A stretch of 64,000 nt of DNA from Candidatus Phycosocius bacilliformis. Its GTDB lineage: Bacteria > Pseudomonadota > Alphaproteobacteria > Caulobacterales > Aquidulcibacteraceae. The stretch is taken from positions 62,001 through 126,000 of the forward strand of contig NZ_BFBR01000004.1 in assembly GCF_003112735.1 (NCBI RefSeq), in the 5' to 3' direction. Position numbers and translations under genes: made by a program. The notes under the pieces were generated by a model, which was not told where the DNA came from, did no database searches, and was given only the letters and a program-made list of their open reading frames with translations. Position 1 is the stretch's first letter, and every line of letters begins with the position of its first letter. This document shows positions 35,876 to 37,914 of this stretch, in pieces.

Positions 35876-36547
35876 CTATAACAAGGTGATCATCGGTACT
35901 GGCCAGCGGCGCGGCGGGGGTAAGGGCGGGGGACGACTTCGGCTTTTCTGGGTGATCTGAAAACCCATGGCATCGAAGGTGGCGCTGATTTCATGGCCGC
36001 GTCGGGCCATGATGCGGGGGCGCTCTTCAGGGGCGAGCATGGGGCCGGGACGGCGGCGGGCGAGGGAGTAGGCCAAGCGTTTGGCCTTGGCCTCGGGGTC
36101 GGCTGCGATGGCCTGCAGCAAGTCCAAGCGCCGCAACCAGTGGCCGATGGGTACAGGGGCGGGGGCAAAGTTAAAGGGCCGGGCTTGGCCTGTGACAGCA
36201 GCAGATAGCGCCTCAAACCGCTGCGCGAGCGTGTCAGGATGGGGCAGAAACGGGGCCGGAAACACCCGAAAGCCTGGCGTGCGAACAGAAGGCTTGCGCG
36301 CCTTCTTGCGGCGCAGGTTTTCAACCTGCGGCTTGGCGATCAATTCATGCTCCAGATCAAGCGCCATCAGGATCAATATCCGGCGCAAGAAGGCCTCAAG
36401 CGCCCGCACACCCGCCCGCAGACGGGCCGCCACCGCCTTGCGCACAAAGTGCGGCCGTTCCCACAAATTATCCTTTGCCAAGACATGGCTATGCAGCCGC
36501 AAGGCCAGGGACAGCACAAAGGCAAAGGGGGCAAGTGAGAAGGCCAT
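35876..36547 (-). CDS. Conserved hypothetical protein with basic, proline-rich C-terminus
   Basis: A 223-residue product beginning MAFSLAPFAFVLSLAL at 36547. A longer in-frame start at 36850 must be rejected, because the extra residues are translated palindromic repeat DNA. The N-terminal hydrophobic segment is followed by an Arg/Lys-rich region (RRILILMALDLEHEL, LRRKKARKPS), a region with LRRLDLLQAIAADPEAKAKRLAYSLARRRPG, and a C-terminal run of proline and arginine. I do not recognise the family; the pattern is reminiscent of a DNA- or membrane-associated protein. It borders the repeat island. Confidence 0.55.
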   Translation of the reverse strand: MAFSLAPFAFVLSLALRLHSHVLAKDNLWERPHFVRKAVAARLRAGVRALEAFLRRILILMALDLEHELIAKPQVENLRRKKARKPSVRTPGFRVFPAPFLPHPDTLAQRFEALSAAVTGQARPFNFAPAPVPIGHWLRRLDLLQAIAADPEAKAKRLAYSLARRRPGPMLAPEERPRIMARRGHEISATFDAMGFQITQKSRSRPPPLPPPRRWPVPMITLL

Positions 36548-36617
36548 GACACTATCATGGCGGGGGAAGCTATGCTGTGGGATAGATTGGGATGGCCCCC
36601 CCCACCCACACCACGTT

Positions 36618-36707
36618 GTCATCCCGGACGGCGAAGCCGATCCGGGACCTTGTGGTGCACATGCGCGAGCAGGTCCCCGCTCTGCGCTGCGCTCCGGCGG
36701 GGATGAC
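36618..36707. repeat. Palindromic ~90-bp element, copy 1
   Basis: Begins GTCATCCCGGA and ends GGGGATGAC, so its ends are inverted repeats. The left arm folds into TCCCGGA-CGGC-GAA-GCCG-A-TCCGGGA; the right arm has a CCCCGC/GCGGGG stem. Six related copies lie between 36.6 and 37.9 kb. Confidence 0.85.
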
Positions 36708-36739
36708 ATCGTTAAAAAAGTTAAATTATACATAGCGGT

Positions 36740-36829
36740 GTCATCCCGGACGGCGAAGCCGATCCGGGATCTTGTGCCGCAAAAGCGTAAGCAGGTCCCC
36801 GCTCTCCGCTTCGCTTCGGCGGGGATGAC
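36740..36829. repeat. Palindromic ~90-bp element, copy 2
   Basis: Same structure as the copy at 36618 with a CCGCAAAAGCG centre. Orientation is the same as the other copies. Confidence 0.85.
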
Positions 36830-36862
36830 ATCGTTTAGAGTTGGTTGCATTTATAAATGGGT

Positions 36863-36953
36863 GTCATCCCGGACGGCGAAGCCGATCCGGGACCTTGTGC
36901 CGCACGTGCGCATGGAGGTCCCCGCTCTCCGCTATCGCTCCGGCGGGGATGAC
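36863..36953. repeat. Palindromic ~91-bp element, copy 3
   Basis: Its left flank (GAGTTGGTTGCATTTATAAA) recurs before the copy at 37466, so a unit larger than one element has been duplicated. It ends 6 bases before the stop codon end of the GIY-YIG gene. Confidence 0.85.
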
Positions 36954-36959
36954 ATATGG

Positions 36960-37271
36960 TTAGAAACGAAAGTCTTCCCACAAATCGCGCCAATCCGGGT
37001 TGCTCCTTTCCACCAACTCAATCTTCCACGCGCGCCGCCAACGCTTGATCCGCTTCTCGCGCTGGATTGCGACGGTGACTTCACGATAATTTTCGACCCA
37101 GACCAGCCGTTCCAAATTGTATCGGTCGGTGAAGCTGTTCTTGAGCTGGTGAGTTCGGTGTTGCCAAACACGCTTAATGAGGTCGCTTGTGAACCCGACA
37201 TAAAAAGTCCCTCTCGGACGATTAGTCATGATGTATACGAAGTATTTGTCCTCTATCCCCGACGCGCCCAT
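36960..37271 (-). CDS. GIY-YIG nuclease family protein
   Basis: A 103-residue single-domain GIY-YIG protein: FVYIM (about 11-15) and FYVGFT (about 23-28) form the two halves of the motif, the catalytic arginine region is LIKRVWQHRTH (about 31-41), and REKRIKRWRRAWKIELVE (about 71-88) holds the metal-binding glutamate/asparagine region. Such small proteins (UPF0213-like) cut DNA in a few characterised cases, but most are uncharacterised. It lies between copies 3 and 4 of a palindromic element, which suggests either insertion of the repeats around it or a role in their spread. The start is the longest ATG; MTNRP at residue 15 is not a likely alternative. Confidence 0.85.
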   Translation of the reverse strand: MGASGIEDKYFVYIMTNRPRGTFYVGFTSDLIKRVWQHRTHQLKNSFTDRYNLERLVWVENYREVTVAIQREKRIKRWRRAWKIELVERSNPDWRDLWEDFRF

Positions 37272-37341
37272 CTCTCATATCCCGGGTAGAATTTTTTGCT
37301 ATTTTAAATAAGCAAAATCCAAAGTCTACTTATGAGTTTGT

Positions 37342-37432
37342 GTCATCCCGGACGGCGTAGCCGATCCGGGATCTTGTGGAGCACATGCACGAGGGGGTCC
37401 CCGCTCTGCGCTATCGCTCCGGCGGGGATGAC
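37342..37432. repeat. Palindromic ~91-bp element, copy 4
   Basis: Same terminal inverted repeats and internal hairpins as the others; the left arm has one change (CGGCGTAGCCG instead of CGGCGAAGCCG), which keeps the stem. Lies upstream of the GIY-YIG gene. Confidence 0.85.
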
Positions 37433-37465
37433 GTCGTTTGGAGTTGGTTGCATTTATAAATGGGT

Positions 37466-37556
37466 GTCATCCCGGACGGCGAAGCCGATCCGGGACCTTG
37501 TGACGCACATGCTCATAGAGGTCCCCGCTCTGCGCTATCGCTCCGGCGGGGATGAC
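37466..37556. repeat. Palindromic ~91-bp element, copy 5
   Basis: Shares its left flank with copy 3, showing that the pair copy 4-copy 5 and the pair copy 2-copy 3 derive from one dimeric unit. Confidence 0.85.
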
Positions 37557-37642
37557 ATCGTTTGGAGAAGATTTTTGTCTGGAAGCACTTTGGTGCCCAG
37601 TCTGGTCACCAAACCGCAACCTCAATTGTTTCTGCGACGCCT

Positions 37643-37715
37643 GGGTGGTCAAGTGTCGGTTTTCTCTGAAAACCGATCGCACCGCGACGCAGCAAAGCTG
37701 CGCACTTGACGACCC
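37643..37715. repeat. 73-bp cloverleaf-like inverted repeat
   Basis: The ends GGGTGGTCAAGTG and CACTTGACGACCC pair at 12 of 13 positions. Inside are two perfect hairpins: CGGTTTTC-TCT-GAAAACCG (37657-37675) and CGCAG-CAAAG-CTGCG (37688-37702). It is unrelated in sequence to the 90-bp elements beside it. Confidence 0.7.
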
Positions 37716-37740
37716 AGATGTCGCGCTCAAACTTGACCAT

Positions 37741-37774
37741 CCGTTTTGGTGAAACACAGGTTTCACCAAAGCGG
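37741..37774. repeat. Long perfect hairpin
   Basis: CCGTTTTGGTGAAAC pairs with GTTTCACCAAAGCGG over 15 positions (one T-G pair) around the loop ACAG, 26 bases after the cloverleaf-like repeat. The 357-base gap 37558-37914 holds this, the cloverleaf and a partial 90-bp element, and no credible gene. Confidence 0.75.
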
Positions 37775-37807
37775 TTCTAGGTAGAAAGGCCAAATCAATA
37801 AACCGCT

Positions 37808-37845
37808 GTCATCCCGGACGGCGAAGCCGATCCGGGATCACATGA
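37808..37845. repeat. Partial palindromic element, copy 6
   Basis: Only the left arm (GTCATCCCGGACGGCGAAGCCG to ATCCGGGATC) is conserved; the right arm has been replaced by unrelated sequence near the end of grpE. Confidence 0.75.
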
Positions 37846-37914
37846 CGCACACCCGCAAAGGAGTCCCCCACCACATTGGTGGGGATTGCACACTTGGGTG
37901 GGCCAAGACCCGGC

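Follow-up and report, generated by a model that had tools for sequence, protein, structure and literature searches.

A small GIY-YIG nuclease encoded between palindromic elements as a candidate partner in the spread of CGTC-tagged REPs

Organization of the locus

The window, meaning the whole stretch of 64,000 nucleotides analyzed here, carries an intact gene for a 103-residue GIY-YIG protein on the minus strand (36960–37271), as the first-pass annotation had proposed. The five complete palindromic elements and one partial element described around this gene are all located, on the plus strand between 36618 and 37868, the complete copies being about 91 bp long each. Copies 1 (36618–36707), 2 (36740–36829) and 3 (36863–36953) lie on the side of the stop codon, the last of them ending 6 bp from it, and copies 4 (37342–37432) and 5 (37466–37556) lie on the other side. 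These are followed by a palindromic repeat of another family, about 219 bp in length (37569–37787, plus strand), and by partial copy 6 (37808–37868), which comprises the first hairpin and the middle part of the element. The second repeat, represented by 57 matching pieces in the genome, has ends reading ..GGAAGC.CTTTGGTG / CACCAAAGCGGTTCTA and a fixed orientation, and many arrays of the 91-bp element have one directly after them. The longest frame of the neighbor gene (35876–36850, minus strand) begins within the elements, which gives it a spurious N-terminus and sets a trap for annotation.

Every complete copy contains outward-facing tags (GTCA) and two internal hairpins, together with the terminal GTCATCC/GGATGAC repeats reported at first reading, and all five consist of two units in inverted orientation whose tags lie at the outer ends, i.e., head-to-head dimers of the CGTC type of REP. 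CGTC-tagged REPs were defined by Di Nocera et al. (2013; PMC3733652), occur mostly in Alphaproteobacteria and include dRS3 of Neisseria and RPE-4/6 of Rickettsia. Their marks are a CGTC or TGTC tag, a stem of 8–9 bp starting from AT, a loop of 4–5 nt, a CCA tail and the arrangement into head-to-head dimers (Di Nocera et al., 2013). The tag of the window copies is TGTC, which fits (C/T)GTC, and their tail reads CCT or TCT. Hairpin 1 consists of 7+4 bp with a bulge and shows compensatory changes among 26 elements of four congeners, both sides being altered in 8 cells as against 1.6 in shuffles.

A 33-bp linker of type A joins copies 2 and 3 (36830–36862, plus strand) and is found again between copies 4 and 5 (37433–37465, plus strand). 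The two pairs do share their flanks, which had been attributed to duplication of dimers, but the linker types recur in many clusters across the genome; the shared flanks therefore belong to a mosaic that extends over the whole genome, and a purely local duplication is rejected as their source. The gene itself occupies a linker between elements. The ends of this gene-bearing spacer (36954–36973 and 37320–37341) resemble linker type D (ACGTGGTTAGAAACATCAACTTATACAACAACTT, plus a second variant), and the short linkers look as if they were derived from the gene-bearing unit by internal deletion. The descent of linker D from the GIY-YIG spacer is suggested by this likeness of the ends only, and is not counted as evidence here.

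The host genome (3.33 Mb), whose closest relatives in a scan of GTDB belong to Aquidulcibacter (Caulobacterales), contains about 85 BLAST matches of the element in about 30 clusters, and 145 matches to its covariance model, so that chance does not account for the copies in the window. The period inside the clusters is constant at 122–124 bp, because each copy is joined to the next by a linker of 32–34 bp drawn from a small set of recurring types; the type shared by copies 2–3 and 4–5 is among those present in many clusters. The element arrays are BIME-like mosaics. Only two GIY-YIG genes are found in this genome, the window gene and one in a frame of 696 residues, which we take to be UvrC.

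The GIY-YIG protein

The window protein matches Pfam PF01541 with 44.9 bits (cut-off 22.6) and retains the catalytic residues Y13, Y24, R34, H38, E72 and N91. In an alignment of 41 homologues, the tyrosines of the GIY and YIG motifs, the arginine, the histidine, the glutamate and the asparagine are conserved. The closest structural match of the AlphaFold2 model (pLDDT 91) is UPF0213 protein BH0048, followed by Slx1 nucleases, and UvrC is matched only weakly. The protein shows the marks of the GIY-YIG superfamily in its domain, fold and catalytic residues; its match to TIGR01453 is weak and below the family cut-off, and a Pfam search found no NUMOD DNA-binding domain in it. A survey of the superfamily from 2006 recognizes an Slx1-like cluster among prokaryotic proteins, and REPs are unmentioned in its accessible part. 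In the orthologous gene of genome G006 (L135, 4442–4750), a TGA lies in frame nine codons ahead of the normal end, and this genome retains 88 elements despite the early TGA.

Association of the gene with repeats

Homologous GIY-YIG loci from related genomes, together with those from a scan of GTDB genomes, provide 145 distinct genes, and the other genes in the same loci serve as controls (n = 680; small genes, n = 238). The flanking test is blind to the tag and asks whether a given repeat recurs on each side of the gene at no more than 400 bp from it. The homologues were chosen for their closeness to the query, and within this subfamily 92 of 145 genes (63%) have such a repeat on both sides. 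The same holds for 5 of 680 control genes (Fisher P = 8e-77) and, among the small controls, for 2 of 238 (Fisher P = 2e-47). Whether GIY-YIG genes of related genomes are flanked above chance, a question raised in the first-pass annotation, thus receives a strongly positive answer. The median gap is about 45 bp in the flanked genes; the other 53 of the 145 do not have repeats on both sides by this test. The GTDB-wide set alone, which covers Alpha-, Beta- and Gammaproteobacteria, Desulfobulbus and one Myxococcales bacterium, gives 45 of 72 genes flanked against 8 of 1454 control positions, and repeats on both sides are absent at two Planctomycetota loci and one Binatia locus of this set.

The association is specific for the GTCAT or CTCAT tag. 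Hairpins tagged with GTCAT lie on both sides of 40 of the 145 genes (28%) and of one of the 680 controls (0.1%), and scrambled tags give about zero in the same test. The tagged hairpins beside genes number 183, of which 119 have a 4-nt loop (the stem was selected for, the loop was not), 114 a CCA tail and 141 a CGTC (96) or TGTC (45) tag, neither of the latter two features being a selection criterion. Since the short loop, the CCA tail and the CGTC/TGTC tags are published marks (Di Nocera et al., 2013), these hairpins resemble CGTC REPs. Covariation counts in the hairpin alignment (A4) are not evidence, as its sequences were chosen for having a hairpin.

Element number and presence of the gene

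Elements were counted in nine genomes of the window's genus, Aquidulcibacter, with a covariance model derived from the elements found in four of the species. Members with the gene contain 88, 117, 122 and 145 elements (145 in the window's genome) and members without it 0, 24, 30, 35 and 40 (exact P = 0.008), a contrast that is weak as independent evidence because the species with the gene represent two lineages at most. A general CGTC-REP model (R3) was run over 150 related genomes. Among the matches listed (at most 50 per genome), the median number of CGTC REPs is 10 in gene-positive and 1 in gene-negative genomes (P = 1e-8) and REP number rises with the number of gene copies (Spearman 0.55), both figures being drawn from genomes that are not phylogenetically independent and from assemblies of which the drafts undercount repeats. 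In 12 of 104 gene-positive genomes, R3 detects no REP.

Genomes with many elements and no such gene, which the first-pass annotation had named as contrary to a role of the nuclease, do occur: G087, a genome rated 100% complete, has at least 40 CGTC REPs and no detectable GIY-YIG homologue, and four congeners keep 24–40 elements; yet copy number tracks the gene. Elements can therefore persist without it, which speaks against a strict need of the elements for the gene, and G087 is a useful test case for such persistence or for another enzyme. Decay of elements in gene-free genomes fits G003 only (element identity 0.806) and not G004, in which identity (0.851) stands at the level of gene-positive genomes (0.855–0.861), and was set aside. 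None of the nine congeners gives a match to PF01797 (RAYT), while control genomes did match, and RAYT was dropped as a mobilizer in this genus for that reason.

Pairing of repeat and protein, and change of site

Between genomes, the flanking repeats resemble each other where the proteins are close but not where they are distant, a pattern that is partly due to the shared ancestry of the loci, so that the comparison within genomes weighs more. Across 59 pairs of paralogues from the same genome, similarity of the flanks drops as the proteins grow more distant (rho = -0.42, permutation P = 0.005); matching repeats tend to be confined to those paralogues of one genome whose proteins are close. In one genome (G098), two paralogues are 80% identical and a flanking repeat is 98% identical, and the repeats were therefore exchanged or copied after the genes had split. 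A variant of the REP dimer with a GCTCAT tag and a CTC tail is seen at five loci (L082, L083, L085, L088 and L090, in G131, G072, G068, G135 and G107, respectively). The GCTCAT-tagged elements adjoin related GIY-YIG genes of one genus, with several dispersed copies per genome, and possibly represent a tag switch that is matched to the enzyme.

The surroundings of the gene differ among congeners. In G006 and G008 it is located beside an Hsp70-like gene, with elements on both sides, and in G007 beside the same neighbor gene as in the window, in the opposite orientation and on a contig that ends shortly past the adjacent element. Eight congeners have neither element nor gene in the stretch examined beyond grpE. 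Because the sites differ, the gene has changed place.

A proposed role for the nuclease

CGTC-tagged REP dimers probably have their enzyme partner in the small GIY-YIG protein, which would act for them as RAYT does for GTAG REPs and which, on the evidence of sequence comparison, is the leading candidate for spreading them. We infer that the nuclease helps the elements to spread in the following manner. It would recognize the tagged hairpin once the palindrome is extruded, either from DNA that is single-stranded in replication or as a cruciform, and would nick at or beside the tag (GTC|AT). The break may then be mended by copying another REP or a whole array, through which the elements would be spread and homogenized, the arrays lengthened, and the gene sometimes moved along with its flanking REPs. 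Such spread by breaking and copying is favored because DNA hydrolysis is what GIY-YIG enzymes do, and they are not known to transfer strands.

The main rival to this proposal is a tolerance factor, i.e., an Slx1-like structure-specific nuclease. By resolving the cruciforms or hairpins into which REP dimers fold, it would let the palindromes persist and amplify passively and would not move them. Slx1 nucleases, which act on branched DNA, are the closest confident solved structures after the uncharacterized UPF0213 protein, palindromes are reported to stall replication (Di Nocera et al., 2013), and the correlation with copy number would be accounted for in the absence of transposition. Tolerance nevertheless leaves unexplained the seat of the gene between REPs and their joint change of site, as well as the tendency of paralogues to match particular repeat subtypes, and we regard it as possible, if unlikely.

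GIY-YIG homing endonucleases are selfish, and the gene could be a free-standing passenger of this kind, inserting into REP arrays as abundant neutral targets while the REPs are independent of it. Its position in place of a 33-bp linker between intact elements, with ends like those of linker D, is consistent with such an origin, as is the persistence of REPs in gene-free genomes. A passenger becomes quite improbable, however, when it is considered that REP number correlates with both the presence and the copy number of the gene, that REP subtype tends to match protein clade, and that no interrupted single element, the classic homing site, is seen in the window. A coincidence of neutral sites, with REPs and horizontally acquired small genes gathering in the same permissive intergenic regions, would suit the intergenic and between-species variable nature of both, but is highly improbable and already nearly refuted by the flanking of fewer than 1% of the other genes in the same loci, small ones included (5/680; 2/238), and by the specificity for the GTCAT or CTCAT tag.

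It is somewhat more likely than not that single-domain GIY-YIG nucleases recognize and spread CGTC REPs and so constitute a second, non-homologous kind of REPtron, distributed over Pseudomonadota and some neighboring phyla. The puzzle of how CGTC REPs spread, dating from 2013, would then be solved, and partnerships between REPs and enzymes would have evolved twice with unrelated nucleases, a case of convergent evolution. Few repeats of bacteria are as widespread as the CGTC REPs, and their strong, tag-specific association with a defined nuclease family provides a directly testable candidate, as well as a probable role for a very common protein usually annotated just as "GIY-YIG nuclease." A literature search, with bioRxiv and most subscription papers outside it, found no publication linking GIY-YIG proteins to REPs.

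Comparison with known systems

The repeats beside the genes share with published CGTC REPs the tag and the dimeric arrangement and, for the most part, the short loop and the CCA tail, on a stem starting from AT that was itself selected for. The window elements differ in their longer, bulged first hairpin and in the CCT or TCT tail that replaces CCA. CGTC REPs are reported to have no dedicated transposase, and none was found adjacent to them (Di Nocera et al., 2013), whereas a nuclease gene lies between such REPs here. In enterobacterial BIMEs, too, palindromes and linkers of fixed length form mosaics in tandem, but the window repeats belong to a different palindrome superfamily and have a period of about 123 bp.

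Among GIY-YIG nucleases, Slx1, UPF0213 and UvrC have the same fold and catalytic residues as the window protein. The window protein has no RING or UvrB-binding domain, and its gene is flanked by repeats and has no fixed place among congeners. Homing endonucleases of the I-TevI type have the catalytic domain in common with it, and the weak TIGR01453 match counts as a further likeness, but the window gene is free-standing, with no intron seen.

The RAYT/REPtron system (TnpA-REP with GTAG REPs) is alike in that a single-domain nuclease gene lies between REPs of which further copies are dispersed over the genome, in the pairing of subtypes, and in the link between copy number and the gene. It differs in the enzyme, RAYT being an HUH tyrosine transposase (PF01797) and the window protein a GIY-YIG nuclease (PF01541), and in the tag, which is GTC followed by AT (CGTC type) in the window and GTAG in the REPs of RAYT. 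The locus is thus best read as a RAYT-like arrangement with an unrelated enzyme and a different superfamily of REPs.
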